Below, in pieces: positions 7,898 through 34,355 of a DNA stretch of 34,355 nt. The stretch lies in assembly GCA_002710775.1 (NCBI GenBank), contig PALX01000005.1, positions 43,249 to 77,603 on the forward strand, written 5' to 3'. The position numbers and the translations under genes were made by a program. The DNA comes from Micavibrio sp. (GTDB lineage: Bacteria; Pseudomonadota; Alphaproteobacteria; Micavibrionales; UBA9664). The notes beneath the pieces are model-generated. The model saw nothing but the letters and a program-made list of their open reading frames with translations. It was not told where the DNA came from and made no database searches. Numbering within the stretch: the stretch's first letter is position 1; every line of letters begins with the position of its first letter.

Positions 7898-9580
7898 TTA
7901 TGCTTCATCTTCAGGATAGATGACTTTGGCTACTTTTGTGCCGGGGAATAGCTCAACTATTTTTGTCACGTTTTCATGCGCTTTGACCATTTCGAGATCA
8001 GCCGCCTGCGCCGCACGTTTTTGATCGGCAAGGCTTGGGAGACCTTCATCCGTAGACGGGCTGACCATAAAGACATTGCCCGTATGGTCTTTTAGCGCTT
8101 TGGATAGGCGTTTTGTGATATCACCGCGCGCGCCATCCTTTAGGCGGATCTCGATAAAGCCTTTTGAGAATTTTACCGGATGTGCGTATTCATATAGCTC
8201 ATTGGCCAGCAAGATTTCACGGGGTGTAAGGTAGTCATATAAGCTTTCCATGGAGTCAAAACGATCTATGCCATCATTTGTTCCATTCGGCGACGTGCTT
8301 TCCTGTGGTGCCGGTTTTTGCGCCACCGCCGCGCCGCTACCTGCAACACTCATTAAAGTACGGCCTTCGCCTTCATCTTTGTTTACACTTTGTTGGCCGG
8401 CAATGTTCACATCGCTGATCTCACCGCTTTGTATCTTTTTAATCAGATCAAGCGGGTCAGGCATTTCATTGGCATAGATAAGACGAATGAGCACCATCTC
8501 AGCGGCTTTAATAGCGTTTGGTGCGCTTTGCACTTCATGTAAGCCTTTCATCAGGATTTGCCATGCACGGTTCAGCCCTGGCATAGAAAGCTGATAGGCG
8601 AGTGACTCGGCGCGCTCTTGCTGGCCATGCGGAATGTTGGTTCCTTCGGCATTGCCTTTTAAGATGCGGATTTTTGTAAAGCTATGGGTGAGTTCCAGAA
8701 GGTCTTCGATCACTTGTGCGGGGTCTGCGCCTTCCGCATATAGCGTTTCCAAAATGGATAGTGCCTGTTTAGTCTTGCCTGTCATGGCGGATTCGAACAA
8801 ATCGACAAGTCTTGTGCCATCGGTCAGGCCGAGCATGTTCTTAACGGTTTCAGCCTCGACCTTACCGTCCCCAAGGGCGATTGCTTGGTCGAGAAGACTT
8901 AAGCCGTCACGAACAGAACCATCAGCGGCTTGTGAAATCATTGTAATAGCGGCTTCGTCATATTCTGACCCCTCTTTCGAACAAATCTTTTTGAAGTGCT
9001 TCTCGAGTTCGGATAGTTCAATGCGGCGTAGATCAAATCGTTGACAGCGGGAGAGAACGGTAACAGGTACTTTACGAATTTCAGTTGTCGCGAAAATGAA
9101 TTTTACATGAGAGGGTGGCTCTTCCAATGTCTTCAAAAGCGCATTGAATGCGTTTTTAGAGAGCATGTGCACCTCGTCAATAATGTATATTTTATAACGC
9201 GCTGATGACGGGGCATAGCGTACGCCATCGATCAGTTCGCGGACATCATCTACCCCTGTATGAGAGGCGGCATCCATTTCGATGACATCTGGGTGACGGC
9301 CTTCGGAAATTGCCTGACATGTTTCGCAATCATCCGTATTCCCCGTTGTTGGGCCGGCTTTGCCATCCGCGCCTGTATAATTTAGAGCCTTAGCAATAAT
9401 ACGCGCTGTTGTTGTCTTACCGACACCGCGAATACCAGTGAGCATGAAAGCATGCGCAATACGCCCTGTTTCAATCGCATTTTTGAGTGTTTGAACGAGG
9501 GGGGCCTGGCCGATAAGGTCGTCAAAATTCTGCGGACGATATTTTCGGGCTAAAACCTGATATTCTTTTTCTGTGCTCAT
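7898..9580 (-). CDS. dnaX: DNA polymerase III subunit gamma/tau
   Basis: Clamp-loader ATPase of the replicative polymerase. Features: ARKYRPQNFDDLIGQ at the N-terminus, Walker A GIRGVGKT (49-56), Walker B IIDEVHML (133-140), FIFATTEIRKVPVTVLSRCQRF with the SRC sensor motif (~175), and a proline/serine-rich linker before the C-terminal domain. Only CETC (85-88) of the usual four-cysteine zinc site is obvious; ALNY replaces the upstream ALNC, which I recall from other alphaproteobacterial DnaX proteins. Length 560 is within the family range. No A-rich slippery site for making the short gamma form was noticed. The gene stands alone between two plus-strand genes. Confidence 0.96.
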   Translation of the reverse strand: MSTEKEYQVLARKYRPQNFDDLIGQAPLVQTLKNAIETGRIAHAFMLTGIRGVGKTTTARIIAKALNYTGADGKAGPTTGNTDDCETCQAISEGRHPDVIEMDAASHTGVDDVRELIDGVRYAPSSARYKIYIIDEVHMLSKNAFNALLKTLEEPPSHVKFIFATTEIRKVPVTVLSRCQRFDLRRIELSELEKHFKKICSKEGSEYDEAAITMISQAADGSVRDGLSLLDQAIALGDGKVEAETVKNMLGLTDGTRLVDLFESAMTGKTKQALSILETLYAEGADPAQVIEDLLELTHSFTKIRILKGNAEGTNIPHGQQERAESLAYQLSMPGLNRAWQILMKGLHEVQSAPNAIKAAEMVLIRLIYANEMPDPLDLIKKIQSGEISDVNIAGQQSVNKDEGEGRTLMSVAGSGAAVAQKPAPQESTSPNGTNDGIDRFDSMESLYDYLTPREILLANELYEYAHPVKFSKGFIEIRLKDGARGDITKRLSKALKDHTGNVFMVSPSTDEGLPSLADQKRAAQAADLEMVKAHENVTKIVELFPGTKVAKVIYPEDEA

Positions 9581-9686
9581 ATATAATTTGTAGCGCGGAG
9601 GCCTGATATTTGCAAAGCTTAACTTTACGCTGTCACCTGTTTTGTTTATAAATGCACCACACTTAAAATTTTAAGGAAAATAAAGC

Positions 9687-10652
9687 ATGTATGATGTTAC
9701 AGCCGTTTGCCGCGCCTATGTTGATTTGATTGTGCCTGTGAGCTTTGAGGAGCTGAAAGAGCTCGGACTTATTCCCGGACAGGACCAGTTAGTCTCGAAA
9801 GAGGAAATTTCCCGCCTGACAACGAAGTTTTTGGACCGCGCTGAAATCTGGCCGGGTGGGCCGGGCGCTAATACGGTCAGCGGTGTGCGTGCTTTATCGG
9901 GCAAAGGGGCTTTTATTGGTAAAATATCTGATGACCAAATGGGGAAAATATTCAAAAAAGACATGGATGAACGCGATATAGATTTTGATACCGAAGTTCT
10001 GCCCAATGATGTGACGGCAAGCTGTGTCATCTTTGTTGCGCCCAGCGGGGATCGTACTATTTTGTACAATCCTGCTATTGCCGATAAGGTCACGATGGCG
10101 GATTTAGAGACAAATAAGGCTGTATTGGAAACAAGTAAAATTTTGTTTCTAGGCTGGCTGAACCGCGAGACGAAATGCGCAGATGTCATTAAGCGCATCT
10201 ATGAATTAACGCCCAATGCTAAATATGTTGCTTCTTTGCAAAGTTATGGAGCACGAGAGAATGATGAGTTTGATGCTATTTCAAAAGCGGATATTTTGCT
10301 GGGTAATGAAAATGAGTATGGCTTGTATATTATGGATTTAAAGCTCGATGATATTGCTGAACTCTCACTGGCAATGCCTGAAAAAACGTTTGTTTGTACG
10401 AAAGGCAAGCACGGCGCATCTGTGTATCAAAAGGGCATATGTATTGATATTGCGGCGGCGTCTTGTGATAAAGTCATTGATGCGACAGGTGGCGGTGATG
10501 CATGGGCGGCAGGATTTTTATATGGGATGGCTAAAGACATGCCGATTGAAAAATGCGGGGCGCTGGGCGCGCTCTGCGCGGCGGAGATTATTCAGCACAA
10601 TGGTGCAAGGCCGCAAGGCTCATGGACACATTTGCTAGAGCAGGTGAAATAG
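9687..10652 (+). CDS. PfkB-family carbohydrate/nucleoside kinase (adenosine-kinase-like)
   Basis: 321 residues. The N-terminal PfkB signature is seen as WPGGPGANTVSGVRALSGKGAFIGKISDDQMG and the C-terminal one as IDATGGGDAWAAGFLYG, in which the Asp of GGGD is the catalytic base; GAGD is the more usual form. The spacing and the phrase CVIFVAPSGDRTILYNPA resemble adenosine kinase and related sugar kinases in alphaproteobacteria. Substrate assignment is uncertain. Start ATG at 9687 has AAGGA upstream (within ttaaggaaaataaagc). The N-terminus is slightly unusual, with YDVTAVCRAYVDL where many relatives have YDVxGIGNAxVD. Confidence 0.85.
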   Translation: MYDVTAVCRAYVDLIVPVSFEELKELGLIPGQDQLVSKEEISRLTTKFLDRAEIWPGGPGANTVSGVRALSGKGAFIGKISDDQMGKIFKKDMDERDIDFDTEVLPNDVTASCVIFVAPSGDRTILYNPAIADKVTMADLETNKAVLETSKILFLGWLNRETKCADVIKRIYELTPNAKYVASLQSYGARENDEFDAISKADILLGNENEYGLYIMDLKLDDIAELSLAMPEKTFVCTKGKHGASVYQKGICIDIAAASCDKVIDATGGGDAWAAGFLYGMAKDMPIEKCGALGALCAAEIIQHNGARPQGSWTHLLEQVK

Positions 10653-28491: not shown

Positions 28492-29007
28492 CTAGTCTTT
28501 TTTACGGAATTGATCGAGGGAAATAACCTGTCCTGTTTCTTCGCCATCATCGCCGGAGTCTTTGGATGGTTTGTCGTCGTCATCGCCGCCACCTTTTGGT
28601 CCATCACCATCTCCATCAGGCCCGCTCTGGTCATTAGAAAGAGGCTGGAATTGGAGCGCGAAATTGACTGAAGGGTCAGCAAAAATTGTGATTGCCGGCA
28701 TCGGAATAACGAGGCGCTCAGGAATATTATTAAAAGACAGTGTGACTGACAAAAACTCATCATCAACGGTAAGGTCGTAAAACTGGTATTGCAAAACAAT
28801 TGTCATTTCTTGCGGATAGCGTTCTTTCAAGTAGTCAGGAATATCAACGCCTTTATGCTCAGTTAGAAAAGTGATGTAGAAATGATGATCATCAGGTAGA
28901 CCATTATCACGAACTTCTTCAACAGCTTTACGAACAACGCCGCGTAGGGCGCTTTCAACCATTTTGTCGTATCTTAAGATTTCGTCTGTGTCTTTTTTCT
29001 TACTCAT
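28492..29007 (-). CDS. sspB: SspB, alpha-type ClpXP adaptor for tmRNA-tagged proteins
   Basis: 171 residues. It binds the ssrA tag and delivers tagged proteins to ClpXP. The folded domain (~5-120) contains DEILRYDKMVESALRGVVRK, HFYITFLTEHKGVDIPDYLKE and QFYDLTVDDEFLSVTLSFN, matching alphaproteobacterial SspB. An acidic Gly/Asp/Ser-rich flexible linker follows, and the end GQVISLDQFRKKD is the ClpX-docking tail. I chose ATG 29007 (MSKKKDTDE) over 29049, because the longer form adds a spurious hydrophobic leader. No Shine-Dalgarno is seen; a promoter at 29015-29043 would start the mRNA at the ATG, implying a leaderless message. ssrA lies directly upstream on the same strand. Confidence 0.93.
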   Translation of the reverse strand: MSKKKDTDEILRYDKMVESALRGVVRKAVEEVRDNGLPDDHHFYITFLTEHKGVDIPDYLKERYPQEMTIVLQYQFYDLTVDDEFLSVTLSFNNIPERLVIPMPAITIFADPSVNFALQFQPLSNDQSGPDGDGDGPKGGGDDDDKPSKDSGDDGEETGQVISLDQFRKKD

Positions 29008-29014
29008 AGTCAAC

Positions 29015-29043
29015 AATCTAAAGAGTATCAAAAGCCATGACAA
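29015..29043 (-). promoter_or_regulatory. Candidate sspB promoter giving a leaderless mRNA
   Basis: TTGTCA (29043-29038; five of six), 17-base spacer, TAGATT (29020-29015; four of six). The -10 ends seven bases before the sspB ATG, so the transcript would begin at or next to the start codon. Confidence 0.4.
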
Positions 29044-29092
29044 CACCAAAAAGTGTAATTTTGTAAAAAGAGAACAAGATTAAGGTGGAAAA

Positions 29093-29127
29093 TAAAAAAG
29101 GGCCGCTTCTGTTGCGAGGTGCGGCCC
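29093..29127 (-). terminator. Intrinsic terminator of ssrA
   Basis: On the minus strand GGGCCGC (29127-29121) pairs with GCGGCCC (29106-29100), followed by a run of T (29099-29094). It ends the tmRNA precursor and separates it from sspB. Confidence 0.88.
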
Positions 29128-29454
29128 GACCCCACCTAACCTGTATTAAGGGCTAGGAATTCAGTTGTATTGTGCTTAAGCAGCAACGGCGAATGCGCCA
29201 TTGTCGTTAGCAGCAACACGAGATACAAAGTTATCGTTTGCATTTATAATAATTGTCCATTACGGCGGAACAATTCCGAGCGCCGCAAAATCACCTTTAT
29301 CACGTGTGTCGAAGCTATTTCGGCCCCATAAAGCAGCCTGCATATATTATATGCCTTGGGCTGTTTTGGTGGAGCCGCCGGGTACCGCCCCCGGGTCCAC
29401 AACGCTTATTCCGCAACCGCGTTTAGCGCCATAATCAGGCAAAATTGCCTGATA
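29128..29454 (-). ncRNA. ssrA: Circularly permuted two-piece tmRNA
   Basis: Rescues stalled ribosomes by adding a degradation tag. Read on the minus strand, the acceptor piece comes first: T-arm CCGGG-GGCGGTA-CCCGG (29394-29378), acceptor strand CGGCTCC (29377-29371), A, then CCA (29369-29367). An excised loop (29366-29328) with CAGCC/GGCTG and CATATA/TATATG pairs follows. The coding piece begins GGGGCCG (29327-29321), which pairs fully with CGGCTCC (one G-U), and continues AAATAGCTTCGACA. The tag frame at 29214-29176 reads AANDNGAFAVAA then TAA; whether one or both GCT codons are decoded is unresolved. The exact 5' end of the acceptor piece and 3' end of the coding piece are estimates. This permuted form is characteristic of alphaproteobacteria. 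The 464-base gap 29050-29513 is otherwise filled by its promoter and terminator. Confidence 0.95.
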
Positions 29455-29460
29455 CCACTC

Positions 29461-29489
29461 ATTATAGGGCATATAGGTTTATTTTTCAA
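29461..29489 (-). promoter_or_regulatory. Strong sigma-70 promoter of ssrA
   Basis: TTGAAA (29489-29484), a 17-base spacer, and a perfect TATAAT (29466-29461), just upstream of the tmRNA acceptor piece. Transcription should start near 29454. A hairpin ATCAGGC-aatttt-GCCTGAT (29453-29434) begins the precursor. Confidence 0.8.
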
Positions 29490-29513: not shown

Positions 29514-30221
29514 TTATCTGGCGATAAGTACATGAAAAAACTGATAATTTTCACCCGTGCGGCGACAGGCTGTATGTCTGCCATCTAAGGATGCAGCTTC
29601 ATCACCAATGATGTTTTCCAGTGGCTCTCCAAAAATGCCATGGAATTTAACGGCTTCTAAGCTTGGGCGAGAACTTGTATCTGAAGGAATATCTTCATCT
29701 TCTGGTGTAATGCCTAGAAGCTCATTAATGGCTAAACAGACTTCTTTTTTGAGATAGTTTACAGACATGAGGAGCTCAGGTTGTTCCGTGCCGATATTAT
29801 GAACGGGCATAGCGGCGTTAAACCACCACCTTTTATAAGAACGTCCTGTATGATGCACGGGATCATGAGCATCTGGATGGCCTGGGAATTGATAAGCGAT
29901 TTGCCCACCATCAAACCAGAAAACCTGATTTTTAGGGTCCATACAGGCATCATGTTCAAAGTAGTCCGTATTTTTGCCTATACCGTCATAATCGAAGCAA
30001 AGTTGTGTTTCATCAATGCCGTTCTCAAGCATTTTATTGACGGCGCGCTCAACCATCATGGAATAGCCGATCATCTGTTTAGCATAGGCAATAGCTTTGT
30101 CATGTGGCACTTCTTTATATGTAACTTTGTAGTATAGGTCGAATTTGAGGGTAACGAAAACGATAAGGGCAAAGACGACAAAAACACCAAGCCCTATAAA
30201 TTTGAATTTCTTATGCGCCAT
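29514..30221 (-). CDS. Single-pass membrane protein, paralogue of the pilin-like protein at 30304 (B)
   Basis: 235 residues. One N-terminal membrane helix (FIGLGVFVVFALIVFVTL, ~8-25) anchors an extracytoplasmic domain. It is related to the protein upstream: QLCFDYD then YFEHDACMDPKNQVFWFDGGQIAYQF, a later CLAINELLGI, and the ending YQFFHVLIAR match the other's LCFDIDD, YEHASCANTRNRVFHPDGG, CNAINAELGI and YVFYHALIAR. The conserved cysteines suggest disulfides. Unlike its partner it lacks a Gly before the hydrophobic stretch, so it is probably not processed as a prepilin. It is the last gene of the dot/icm-type run, with a possible own promoter at 30263-30291. Function unknown. Confidence 0.75.
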   Translation of the reverse strand: MAHKKFKFIGLGVFVVFALIVFVTLKFDLYYKVTYKEVPHDKAIAYAKQMIGYSMMVERAVNKMLENGIDETQLCFDYDGIGKNTDYFEHDACMDPKNQVFWFDGGQIAYQFPGHPDAHDPVHHTGRSYKRWWFNAAMPVHNIGTEQPELLMSVNYLKKEVCLAINELLGITPEDEDIPSDTSSRPSLEAVKFHGIFGEPLENIIGDEAASLDGRHTACRRTGENYQFFHVLIAR

Positions 30222-30262
30222 ACACTCTGTTTACACTGCCTTTCGTGACATGTTGAAATATC

Positions 30263-30291
30263 ATCCTATAAAGCGAATATTGGTTTTTCAA
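30263..30291 (-). promoter_or_regulatory. Possible promoter for the gene at 29514-30221
   Basis: TTGAAA (30291-30286), 17-base spacer, TAGGAT (30268-30263; four of six), within the 82-base gap between the two pilin-like genes. Confidence 0.35.
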
Positions 30292-30303
30292 GAACTAAAA
30301 AAA

Positions 30304-31041
30304 TTATCGCGCGATGAGGGCGTGGTAGAAGACATAGTCATCGCCGCCACCTGTTGTTTCTTGGATACAACCTGTCTTCTTTCCCAGTAATTCTGGTGCT
30401 TGCCCACTATCGGCAATCGTCGTTCCTGCTGCCGTTGCATTGAACGTGCCTGTAAAGGCATGTGCCGTGTTAATTGCGGTATCAATAGGCGGTGCACTTG
30501 CTACTATACCCAGTTCAGCATTGATAGCATTGCAAATTTCTAGGCTGCCCTCGGCTGTATCGTTCATTCGAACGACATATAAAAGTTCCGTACAAGCTGC
30601 TGGGCCGCATGTTGTGCCAACATTTTCTACTTTGTTGCCTCCATTAATTCTTTCTGATGCAATGGAAAAACCATCTTGGCCAGTGAAAGCTTTATAAAAA
30701 ATGCCGCCGCCATCTGGGTGAAAGACACGATTACGTGTGTTGGCACAAGAAGCATGTTCGTACATCGTATCGCCGCCAGGGTAATCATCAATATCAAAGC
30801 ACAGGTCGTTTTCAGAAACACCGCGTGCTTGTAGGCGTTGAACAGCCGATTCCAGTGATTTTGCAAATGTAATGAGTTCAGAAGCGTAAAGCTGAGATTG
30901 CTCTTTTGAGACGGAAGCGCTACTGCCGCGCATACCTTGTGTGATGGCAAAACCAAGCGCGGCAAAAAGAGCGACGGCGACGAGAATAATAAAGAAAATG
31001 TTTCCGTTTTCTCTATGGGTTGGGCTGAGTGTTGAGGACAT
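30304..31041 (-). CDS. Pilin-like protein with class-III-type prepilin leader (A)
   Basis: 245 residues from the ATG at 31041, chosen because AAAGGGAGG lies just upstream, inside the end of dotL; a longer frame to 31158 overlaps dotL and is unlikely. The N-terminus SPTHRENGNIFFIILVAVAL-FAALGFAI looks like a short prepilin leader: polar residues, a Gly that could be the cleavage site, then a ~20-residue hydrophobic helix. The usual Glu at +5 is missing, as in tip pseudopilins of the GspK/PilX kind. Six or more cysteines and LCFDIDDYPGGDTMYEH, CNAINAELGI and the end YVFYHALIAR are shared in pattern with the paralogue B. It starts one base after the dotL stop, so translation is coupled. This is not a standard Dot/Icm component. 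Confidence 0.8.
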   Translation of the reverse strand: MSSTLSPTHRENGNIFFIILVAVALFAALGFAITQGMRGSSASVSKEQSQLYASELITFAKSLESAVQRLQARGVSENDLCFDIDDYPGGDTMYEHASCANTRNRVFHPDGGGIFYKAFTGQDGFSIASERINGGNKVENVGTTCGPAACTELLYVVRMNDTAEGSLEICNAINAELGIVASAPPIDTAINTAHAFTGTFNATAAGTTIADSGQAPELLGKKTGCIQETTGGGDDYVFYHALIAR

Positions 31042-31042
31042 A

Positions 31043-33505
31043 TTAGCCTCCCTTTTTCGGTATGATTGTTTTGGGTTTTTGCTGGCCAGCCTGTGCGTCT
31101 TGACCTTGTTGCAACTGAGGCTGATTAAATAGGCCAGATTTAATATTATCCGCGGCACCCATCAGGATATTTTTTACGTCATCACTGAGGCCGTCTGGCA
31201 TTAGGTATTCGCCTTCATTTGCCAATGCTTCAACAGCATCTTCAGCGTTATAAACATCGTTGCCGACGATTTTTGGTTGCTTGCCACCACCTGAGCCGCC
31301 TTGCGCTTCGCCTTCTTCTTCACCATCACTTTGATCTGACGCGGAAAGATCATCCCATGTTTTATCATCTGTCGTTTTTTGTGTGCCGTCAGAATTCGTT
31401 TGTGGCACACCGCCAGCAGTAACTTTTTCTGTCTCTTTCTCCGTCTGTTTCTGGGGCGCTGACGGCGCTTTAGCTGCCGCACCGGATGAACCATCGTCAC
31501 CGGAAATTTCGGCTGGGTCTAAGCCATTAAGCGCCGCATAAGCTTCAACGATAGCCATGCTTCCTGCCTCGATTGCATCACAGCCCGCCTGTTCGGCAAT
31601 ATCAAAGCCATGGGCAAGGGCGGCTATTTCATCAGGTGTCTCAACAGGAGATTCGGCCTTGGCGGCGGTCCATGTCTTGGAAACCATGCGGTCACGAAGC
31701 TTGGCCAAATTGCCGACATTTTTAAGTTCGGAGTCTGTCGGTGGCGGTAGCGGCAAGAAGCGTTGAACACGCATTGCCTTGGCTTTACCCGTATCTGCAT
31801 AGAAAACATTTACGTCATTAACATTGTCTGAGAATGCGAAGACGGCTTTACCGGGCGGGTAAGAGCCGAGCGCGTTATAATCCGCATTGCTTCGAATTTG
31901 CAGGCTGGCTTGTGTGCCCCCTGTATAGCTACTCGAGAAGTCACCAGCTTTTGTGTCAAAGCCTGTCACCTCAGTCACCAGCGAGTCGCCGACTACTTTT
32001 TCAAAAAATTCTTTTGTTTGTGTCGGGTCTTCAAGTTTACCGAAGATTTTAATGTTACAGTTACCGGCAATAGAGCGCGCTTCTTCCTTCACGCGCTTTT
32101 CCATAGCAGGCAAGTCCTGCGCTGCGTAAACTAGACAGAAACCCAGAGAACGGGCTTGCGCGGCCATCACAGCCATGCCAGATGTCGTATAATATCCAAC
32201 CTCGTCAAAGATAGTCATGAAGGGCGTCGCTGAGTGGGTTGGTTTATTCTCAATCGTAGAAGCAGAACTACCCTCAACGCTCGCGCCGAGTGTCGAACCC
32301 ATCATTCCTTTGATGGTGGCCGCAACAATTTTACCGAGGTTGGCAATTTCGTCTGAGGATTTTTCTAGAGCTGGGATCAGCGTCACCATGATACGTCTGT
32401 TCAGAACGATATCGATCATATTGATGTCAGCAGCTTGTGAATCGAAGATATAGCCGTAATCATCGCCAAGGGATTGTAGGGCACGGGTGAACTGCATGGA
32501 CAGATAACCGTGTTGCTGGCGGACAACTTGTGTATCAACCATCGGTGTGTCAGGGCCAGCAGGCTTTTCATTCCCGTCATCGTCAAAAGCGGCGTCTACA
32601 TAGCCGGGTAATGTGTTCAAATACCCAACAAGCGATTCTCTGAGTTTTTCAGGTACGGCCTCATCGCGGCTAAGACGAATAATCGGACCGAGTTCGAGAT
32701 ATTTTCGGATGGATGAGATTGAAAGCGGAATATCTTGGTTGTCACGTTTCCATGTCAGCGCTGGCATCACCGAACCTATCAACGAAACTGCCCGTTCTTT
32801 CCACATGGCATTGTCACCTTCTGCCTCAGGCATAAGTGATACAAGCATTTGTGTCAGATAAGAGGCTGAACCGCTGGAGAATGGGTTCATAGTGTTAGAT
32901 GCGGCGCGCTCATCTGAGTTCCCTGTCATATAGTTCAGGACAAAAAGGTCATCATCGCGCCCAAAACGGCGGACAAGCGAAGATAGCGAGGACCAAAGAT
33001 CCGTGTCAGCTTTACCGTCAATATAAACAAAACCTGAAGCCCAGCACAGTGCATTAGTTGCGAGTGCTTTTAACCCTTCGGTTTTACCAGACCCTGTCGT
33101 ACCGAGGAAAAGAATATGCGTACGAGCGTCACTGTTTGAAAACCAGACTTCTTCACCGCTCTCATCTTTGTTACCAATGTAGAGGATACCTTCGGCTTTA
33201 CCAGAACGCCCGGCGCCTTGATTTTTGGGGTCTTCAAACTTTTTATTCGCCGTCATCGGCATTTTGTAAGGCACATATTTTTCTTGCTTTATAAGCCACC
33301 AAAAATAAAGCACACCGAGAAGGAGGATAAGGTCGAGCAGATATACGGCATGAGGCAGAAATAAAATGAGCGCGATAAAAAAGACATAAACGCTGACAGC
33401 ATTATTGCTGTTCGACATCCATTCGGCAATACGCACCCTTAAGGGACGTGTATCCCTTAAAAAGTGATCGAGGCCGTGGCCGTATTTTTTGGTATCTAAT
33501 GCCAT
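31043..33505 (-). CDS. dotL: DotL/IcmO-like type IV coupling protein (type IVB secretion ATPase)
   Basis: 820 residues. VirD4-type coupling ATPase that recruits effectors to the Dot/Icm system. Two N-terminal membrane helices (~38-55, ~58-72), Walker A LGTTGSGKT (134-142), a DGKADTDLW segment (~163), and Walker B FMTIFDEVGYY (~430) followed by AAQARSLGFCLVYAAQDLPAME, as in DotL. The last ~200 residues form an acidic, Gln/Gly-rich low-complexity tail where Legionella DotL binds IcmS-IcmW and LvgA; the sequence here is not obviously similar, so the adaptors may differ. It lies between an unknown single-pass protein and the pilin-like gene. DotM nearby strengthens the assignment as DotL rather than VirD4/TraG. 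Confidence 0.88.
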   Translation of the reverse strand: MALDTKKYGHGLDHFLRDTRPLRVRIAEWMSNSNNAVSVYVFFIALILFLPHAVYLLDLILLLGVLYFWWLIKQEKYVPYKMPMTANKKFEDPKNQGAGRSGKAEGILYIGNKDESGEEVWFSNSDARTHILFLGTTGSGKTEGLKALATNALCWASGFVYIDGKADTDLWSSLSSLVRRFGRDDDLFVLNYMTGNSDERAASNTMNPFSSGSASYLTQMLVSLMPEAEGDNAMWKERAVSLIGSVMPALTWKRDNQDIPLSISSIRKYLELGPIIRLSRDEAVPEKLRESLVGYLNTLPGYVDAAFDDDGNEKPAGPDTPMVDTQVVRQQHGYLSMQFTRALQSLGDDYGYIFDSQAADINMIDIVLNRRIMVTLIPALEKSSDEIANLGKIVAATIKGMMGSTLGASVEGSSASTIENKPTHSATPFMTIFDEVGYYTTSGMAVMAAQARSLGFCLVYAAQDLPAMEKRVKEEARSIAGNCNIKIFGKLEDPTQTKEFFEKVVGDSLVTEVTGFDTKAGDFSSSYTGGTQASLQIRSNADYNALGSYPPGKAVFAFSDNVNDVNVFYADTGKAKAMRVQRFLPLPPPTDSELKNVGNLAKLRDRMVSKTWTAAKAESPVETPDEIAALAHGFDIAEQAGCDAIEAGSMAIVEAYAALNGLDPAEISGDDGSSGAAAKAPSAPQKQTEKETEKVTAGGVPQTNSDGTQKTTDDKTWDDLSASDQSDGEEEGEAQGGSGGGKQPKIVGNDVYNAEDAVEALANEGEYLMPDGLSDDVKNILMGAADNIKSGLFNQPQLQQGQDAQAGQQKPKTIIPKKGG

Positions 33506-33533
33506 TTATCTTTTTTGTTATTACCTGTTTTTC

Positions 33534-34061
33534 TTATTCGCCTAAAAAATCATCAGCAGAGACCGGGACGCCCGATGGCGCGTTCTCGCTATTAATAGGT
33601 GTTTGTTGTGTTTGTGGGGTGTTTGTTCCACTTGTCTGTTGTACTTGGCTTGGTATATAGCCCTGACGACCAACCGAATTCAGGAAGCTAAAAATTATAA
33701 AAATAACAACGGCGAGGAGTAAAATTTTACCCCAAGGAAAGCCTTTGCCTGTCTTTACCTCACCTGTGACATGACATTTTTTAGAAGCTTTATGCAGAGC
33801 TTGAGTTGCCTTAATTAGTGCATTCATCGCGCGGGCGCGGCTATTGAATGTTGTGATGACTTCTTTAGTCTTCCCTTTTTTTTGTACAAGATGAAACAAT
33901 TGCGCCACGTCGTCAGACTCAATCTCGAAAAAACAGCCCTGCGCCTCTGTCAGACTTGCGCGCCATACAGAGGGTATGTTTGCATCAGGAAAAGACAGAA
34001 CAAGCACATCGCCTACAACCATAGCCTTAGTTTTGTGTCCGCCTGTAATATTCTCAATCAT
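33534..34061 (-). CDS. Unknown single-pass membrane protein between dotM and dotL
   Basis: 175 residues. A cytoplasmic N-terminal domain (~1-105) starts MIENITGGHKTKAMVVGDVLVLSF and appears beta-rich then helical (NSRARAMNALIKATQALHKASKK). One membrane helix (~112-128, ILLLAVVIFIIFSFLN) follows, then a Gln/Thr/Pro-rich tail ending PVSADDFLGE. Not a recognised Dot/Icm component; in Legionella icmP (dotM) and icmO (dotL) are adjacent. AAAGG precedes the ATG at a fair distance. Gaps are 36 bases to dotM and 28 to dotL, so it is in the same operon. By position it could be a partner of the coupling complex; this is inference. Confidence 0.75.
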   Translation of the reverse strand: MIENITGGHKTKAMVVGDVLVLSFPDANIPSVWRASLTEAQGCFFEIESDDVAQLFHLVQKKGKTKEVITTFNSRARAMNALIKATQALHKASKKCHVTGEVKTGKGFPWGKILLLAVVIFIIFSFLNSVGRQGYIPSQVQQTSGTNTPQTQQTPINSENAPSGVPVSADDFLGE

Positions 34062-34097
34062 AAGTCTTGCCTTTCTTTAACGCTTTTACCATCGTCC

Positions 34098-34355
34098 TTA
34101 ATTACTGCCGAGCGGTTTCATAATGCCCGCTATTTTTTTGCCTTCTTTTTTCTTGGAGTATAAGAGCTCAGGGATCGGGCGCGCTCTGTCGCTTTCCAAG
34201 TGTTCGATGAGGACATTAACAGCTTCATCAATTTTTGGCACGGGGATCGGGCGCATTGTACGTTTCTCGCTTTTATAATGGGCCATCGCGGCAAGGGCTT
34301 CGGTGTGGTATGAATTTTTACCGAGGTTATTCAAGGCATACCAAAGATTACGGTC
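34098..34355 (-). CDS. dotM: DotM/IcmP-like type IVB secretion protein, C-terminal end only
   Basis: The frame is open to the right edge; the visible 85 residues read DRNLWYALNNLGKNSYHTEA, then LAAMAHYKSEK and PIPVPKIDEAVNVLIEHLES. This matches the conserved C-terminal region of DotM (LWYALNNLGR, EALGAMAH, PIPRVDTA). DotM is an inner-membrane protein of the Dot/Icm coupling complex whose cytoplasmic domain binds effectors with acidic Glu-rich signals. A TTG at 34334 is an internal codon, not the start. Downstream genes on the same strand are the unknown single-pass protein and dotL. Confidence 0.85.
   Translation of the reverse strand, partial: DRNLWYALNNLGKNSYHTEALAAMAHYKSEKRTMRPIPVPKIDEAVNVLIEHLESDRARPIPELLYSKKKEGKKIAGIMKPLGSN

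Follow-up and report, generated by a model that had tools for sequence, protein, structure and literature searches.

Does a gene that reads like a pilin belong to the secretion system whose coupling ATPase it follows, or does it serve another machine? The question is raised by one end of a 34,355-nucleotide stretch of Micavibrio sp. DNA (here called the window), where five genes stand on the minus strand in the order dotM (3' end), X, dotL, A and B, with gaps of exactly 36, 28, 1 and 82 bases. This order and spacing had been described in an initial annotation, together with the identities of dotL and dotM; the open reading frames were confirmed at these places, and the profile matches agree with both names.

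The dotM-dotL locus

The features of the locus, by window position unless another contig is named, are as follows.

34098-34355, minus strand: 3' part of dotM/icmP, 85 codons inside the window and open at its edge (Pfam DotM_C, 9.8e-16; NF033890, 6.2e-12)
L007:18760-19851, contig C47, at the contig end: remainder of dotM (NF033890, 1.8e-46)
33534-34061, minus strand: X, 175 aa, adjoining dotL; predicted N-terminal beta domain and membrane helix
31043-33505, minus strand: dotL/icmO, type IVB coupling ATPase, 820 aa (TraG-D_C, 1.4e-9; NCBIfam TrbC_conju, 3.4e-116)
31047-31052, minus strand: GGGAGG, ribosome-binding site of A, overlapping the end of dotL, 5 bases ahead of the ATG
30304-31041, minus strand: A, pilin-like, 245 aa counted from the ATG at 31041
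29514-30221, minus strand: B, paralogue of A, 235 aa (blastp against A, E 6e-24)

At its right edge the window reaches the end of contig C5, which belongs to a Micavibrionales metagenome-assembled genome (MAG) of 1.66 Mb in 53 contigs, about 90% complete. The end of C5 (window 34272-34355) and the 3' end of C47 (L007) overlap within dotM over ~84 bases, several of them mismatched, and the MAG therefore appears to mix strains. The stop codon of dotL is followed by one base and then by the ATG of A. Directly downstream of B lies a permuted (two-piece) tmRNA gene (29085-29461, minus strand; tag peptide ANDNFVSRVAANDNGAFAVAA), and next after it sspB (28492-29049).

A Dot/Icm-type system is near-universal among sampled Micavibrionales

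Micavibrionales is the bacterial order that includes the predator Micavibrio. In the present analysis a Dot/Icm-type system proved near-universal among the sampled genomes of this order, with DotL in 92 and DotO in 91 of 94. As the initial annotation had anticipated, other Dot/Icm genes are present in the source genome: dotO lies at C26:1539-4517, and contig C31 carries a pil cluster plus a dotB fragment at the contig end. DotC, DotD, DotF, DotG, DotH and DotI were matched in the same genus or order, and DotN matches NF038221 above the cut-off in the order. DotH was detected in 17 of the 18 genomes examined, and gave no match in the source MAG, which is incomplete (about 90%). A single contig of another genome of the genus (G001) encodes dotI, dotH, dotG, dotF, TraQ-like proteins, dotN, dotO, dotB and dotC, and holds an R64-like pil cluster in its middle. 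A relaxase tied to the system would point to conjugation rather than protein secretion; a search with the relaxase family PF03432, the sole one used, gave no match in the source genome or in G001 and matched somewhere in 16 of 38 relatives. We do not present the type IVB secretion system (T4BSS) of Micavibrionales as new, because pT4SSi have already been listed for seven members of the order (PMC9418006).

X is a constant protein between dotM and dotL

X adjoins dotL in all chromosomal loci with enough upstream sequence (91/91), the two exceptions to this adjacency being plasmids. Other alphaproteobacterial families also have X, in the gene order dotO-dotM-X-dotL, and X is therefore part of an ancestral chromosomal locus. 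The initial annotation had counted X, A and B as three non-canonical genes. None of the three has a Pfam or NCBIfam name; X, being constant in chromosomal alphaproteobacterial T4BSS loci, is no oddity of the source genome.

X also lacks a PDB-sequence match, and no match to X or A was found among 72,556 plasmids, so that a plasmid origin of either was rejected; weak Pfam listings for the two were set aside as noise. The AF2 model of X (76 sequences, pLDDT 83) has six strands and a C-terminal helix, followed by a membrane helix (residues 110-132) and a disordered tail; the C-terminus is conserved as GVPxSADxFL (alignment A2). The best PDB matches to the model include PH domains and are weak (first hit E 0.025, TM 0.32; no E <0.001). 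The prediction for X is thus a PH-like domain joined to a single membrane helix, and lysines ahead of this helix suggest that the N-terminal domain is cytosolic.

A and B belong to one multicopy family

Of 95 loci, 56 have a homologue of A directly behind dotL; the median gap is -11 bases, and in 53 of the 56 it lies between -30 and +60 bases. Together with the constancy of X, this bears out the expectation that the additional genes would be kept beside dotL in relatives, and the arrangement is not a product of chance. Most loci have a single dotL-linked copy. Two occur in the source genome and in G012, and both linked copies of G012 cluster together on the tree, as expected of an independent duplication. 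A and B of the source genome are homologous along their whole length (29% identity), a relationship that the initial annotation had missed. B is a diverged tandem duplicate of A that arose locally; it keeps the membrane helix, and its G↓N cleavage motif (arrow, predicted cut) is gone (no G[NSG]). Of the pilin-like pair proposed initially, the pilin-like part stands for A, whose family fills a pilin slot (see below), while the pair resolves into one locally duplicated family with a second member devoid of the motif.

The N-termini of family members conform to [EQ][SRK]G↓N(A/V)(L/F)F and lead into a membrane helix; in A the motif is ENG↓N. A has the class III leader layout (polar residues, Gly at -1, hydrophobic helix), and B does not. 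The 24-residue N-terminal segment is 52-91% identical within classes and the remainder 25-35%, in proteins of uniform length (about 210-290 aa) with no recognisable enzymatic domain. Type IV filament subunits canonically have Glu at +5, although minor pseudopilins, GspK among them, do without it. Neither Glu nor any acidic residue occurs at +5 in the A family (0/111 for each). In the AF2 model of A (51 sequences, pLDDT 87.5), a membrane helix (15-37) and a second helix (41-72) lead into a beta domain, and the family alignment (A1) has two invariant cysteines, C170 and C225. A has no PDB-sequence match; its model found no solved pilin and nothing similar in the PDB by Foldseek (best E 0.8), so that naming A by structure was abandoned, and the family profile did not match canonical pilins of the same genus. 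With no Glu at +5 and no match for the fold, we do not claim A as a strict type IV pilin.

The family counts 8 copies in the source genome, 28 in G012 and 48 in G005. Dispersed copies are mainly lone genes neighbouring housekeeping genes. The dotL-linked copies form largely a lineage of their own (5 label changes on the tree vs 40 in shuffles), and the association with dotL is therefore old. In G012, three near-identical tandem paralogues (L166:3670-6783 and 8061-10121) adjoin genes that, by sequence only, read like Cas9 and Cas1. In G005, two paralogues adjoin dotD-dotC-dotB (L171:9240-13639); with 48 copies in 2.3 Mb this may be chance, and we do not count it as evidence.

The A family fills the pilin slot of an MSHA-like filament operon

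On contig C6 of the source genome we found the gene series secretin-s561-T2SSE-T2SSF-N325-O183-A'-A'', in which N325 and O183 are membrane proteins of 325 and 183 aa and the last places, those of the pilins, are taken by two A-family genes, A' and A''. It is mainly this position that leads us to call A pilin-like; the structural comparison lends the name no further support. The operon, previously unnamed, is MSHA-like: its secretin is nearest MshL (1.7e-27), its ATPase nearest GspE/PilB and its platform protein nearest GspF. The same series is present in families f1, f2, f3, f5 and f7 and partially in f4 (truncated contig), and a diverged form occurs outside the order. A prepilin peptidase gene was found in 18 of 18 genomes examined, with coordinates adjoining the filament operon in G003, G005, G006, G008, G009, G013 and G017. 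The s561 protein, between secretin and ATPase (L161:505-2190), has ASH/HYDIN-like Ig domains (choice-of-anchor D). In several genomes (L161, L178, L181, L182) a response regulator gene lies upstream of the operon and histidine-kinase-like genes lie downstream.

The dotL-linked A depends on the filament operon

If A serves the filament, a dotL-linked A should require the filament operon. Using the 325 aa protein as marker, we found the operon in 67 of 94 genomes. Both the operon and the sequence behind dotL could be scored in 79 genomes: 44 have linked A and operon, 13 the operon only, 22 neither, while linked A without the operon occurs in none (Fisher p 7.5e-11, in a test that ignores kinship). 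Linked A is thus found in 0 of the 22 genomes without the operon, dotL notwithstanding. A DotL tree of 59 genomes yields seven independent operon contrasts, of which A is concordant in 4, opposite in 0 and equal in 3; with four pairs, an independent-pairs sign test cannot reach 0.05. Within the linked-A clade, every operon loss on the tree (at least four: G025; G051; G079; G041+G059+G065) matches a loss of A with dotL kept. G075 and G089, which are outside the tree, likewise have neither operon nor linked A. Among 381 genomes outside the order, 6 have X, 10 have A and 4 have both (p 3.6e-6, kinship again ignored).

These data show that the dotL-linked A depends on the filament operon. The dependence has a direction: because 13 genomes have the operon and dotL without linked A, neither machine strictly requires A, and since dotL and X persist in many relatives that have no such gene (35 of the 79 scored T4BSS genomes have no linked A), the T4BSS itself does not need it. 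The link runs from the filament to the T4BSS. That A might depend instead on the R64-like pilus was also considered and rejected: strong PilN matches (E <1e-25) occur in only 13 genomes, mainly of f1, f4, f6 and f7, and PilN is missing from most of f3 and from G005 with its 48 A copies.

A model for the dotL-linked subunit, and alternatives

We propose that A is a subunit dedicated to a separate MSHA-like filament and co-produced with the coupling complex of the chromosomal T4BSS, and we give this reading a probability of roughly 60%. DotM and DotL would form the gate of the chromosomal type IVB secretion system, and X would be a constant part of the coupling complex, anchored in the membrane and with a PH-like domain that is probably cytosolic. 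As the start codon of A overlaps the stop of dotL or lies right against it, A would be synthesized by coupled translation with the DotL coupling ATPase. It would then insert in the inner membrane, where the prepilin peptidase probably cuts after the glycine (G13↓N14), and the cleaved protein would be assembled by a machine made of the MSHA-like secretin, the PilB/GspE-like ATPase and the GspF-like platform; B is a duplicate without the cleavage motif. The arrangement suggests that injection and surface filament are made together, and the most likely use would be a filament or filament tip making contact with prey or partner cells while the injection system is loaded. We infer from this a cooperation of filament and T4BSS and a role in predation. 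A bolder version, which we find doubtful, would make T4BSS and MSHA-like filament one coordinated contact-and-injection apparatus, in which the dotL-linked subunit takes the cell to its target or signals contact and the dispersed A paralogues, alike in the segment used for assembly and variable in their outer parts, set which cells are recognised.

Alternatively, A would be an ordinary filament subunit whose gene landed behind a steadily translated one, in an arrangement that serves expression only and leaves A functionally unconnected with the T4BSS. The 13 genomes with both machines and no linked A fit this explanation, as do the other A copies standing alone beside housekeeping genes and the absence of A next to dotL outside the order. 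It accounts less well for the tight dotL-A coupling preserved in many genera, for the linked copies being largely one lineage distinct from the dispersed ones, and for the co-occurrence of T4BSS and filament beyond Micavibrionales; we regard it as rather improbable. The A-family proteins may instead be membrane-anchored T4BSS substrates (effectors), one copy of which is kept by the coupling ATPase that recognises it. Their high copy number in the source genome, G005 and G012, their dispersal, their divergent C-terminal parts and the copies adjoining dotL and, twice in G005, dotD-dotC-dotB would suit effectors; the loss of linked A with the filament operon while dotL persists, the occupation of the pilin slot, the uniform size and the lack of a recognisable enzymatic domain speak against them and make this explanation unlikely. 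Operon position, a single membrane helix and an outward domain with conserved cysteines might indicate that A and B act in the periplasm as inner-membrane components of the T4BSS itself, in its channel or its coupling complex. This is very improbable: A follows the presence of the filament operon and has no counterpart in the plasmid collection, and 35 of 79 scored T4BSS genomes lack it, whereas X is always present.

Taken as a dedicated filament subunit made together with the coupling complex, A offers a testable link between a surface filament and injection in a group of bacterial predators. X adds a constant, unrecognised protein to the coupling operon of the Micavibrionales T4BSS, and the pilin-like A family, of which a genome may carry dozens of copies, has one lineage tied to dotL; both protein families are absent from Pfam and NCBIfam.

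Comparison with known systems

The Micavibrionales share DotL, DotM, DotN, DotO, DotB, DotC, DotD, DotF, DotG, DotH and DotI with the Legionella-type Dot/Icm system, and dotN adjoins dotO in Micavibrionales as it does in Legionella. In contrast to Dot/Icm, X splits dotM from dotL, A sits behind dotL, and the dotM-dotL locus is separate from the dotO cluster.

A positional parallel is found in the Pseudomonas MPF_I plasmid pND6-2, which likewise encodes a protein between dotM and dotL. Its layout as read from the sequence (a beta-rich N-terminal part, one membrane helix and a long tail) resembles that of X, but homology is undetectable (hhalign probability 0.2, no profile support), and we rejected the two as homologues.

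The likeness to the R64/IncI-type thin pilus lies in a pil cluster with PilN secretin, PilO, T2SSE, T2SSF, PilS and shufflon-like proteins. Such a cluster is present in the source genome, and in the same genus it stands within the dot cluster; with PilS and shufflon-like proteins it lies inside the chromosomal dot cluster in f1, f4, f6 and f7 (L157:4052-16060, L186:3086-11623).

Finally, MSHA-type and type II-like machines of the type IV filament superfamily resemble the filament operon in their MshL-near secretin, GspE/PilB-like ATPase, GspF-like platform and prepilin peptidase. The A-family subunits are unlike those of such machines in having N at +1, no Glu at +5 and no family model match, and the Micavibrionales operon stands apart from them by its extra ASH/choice-of-anchor-D protein and its many dispersed subunit paralogues.
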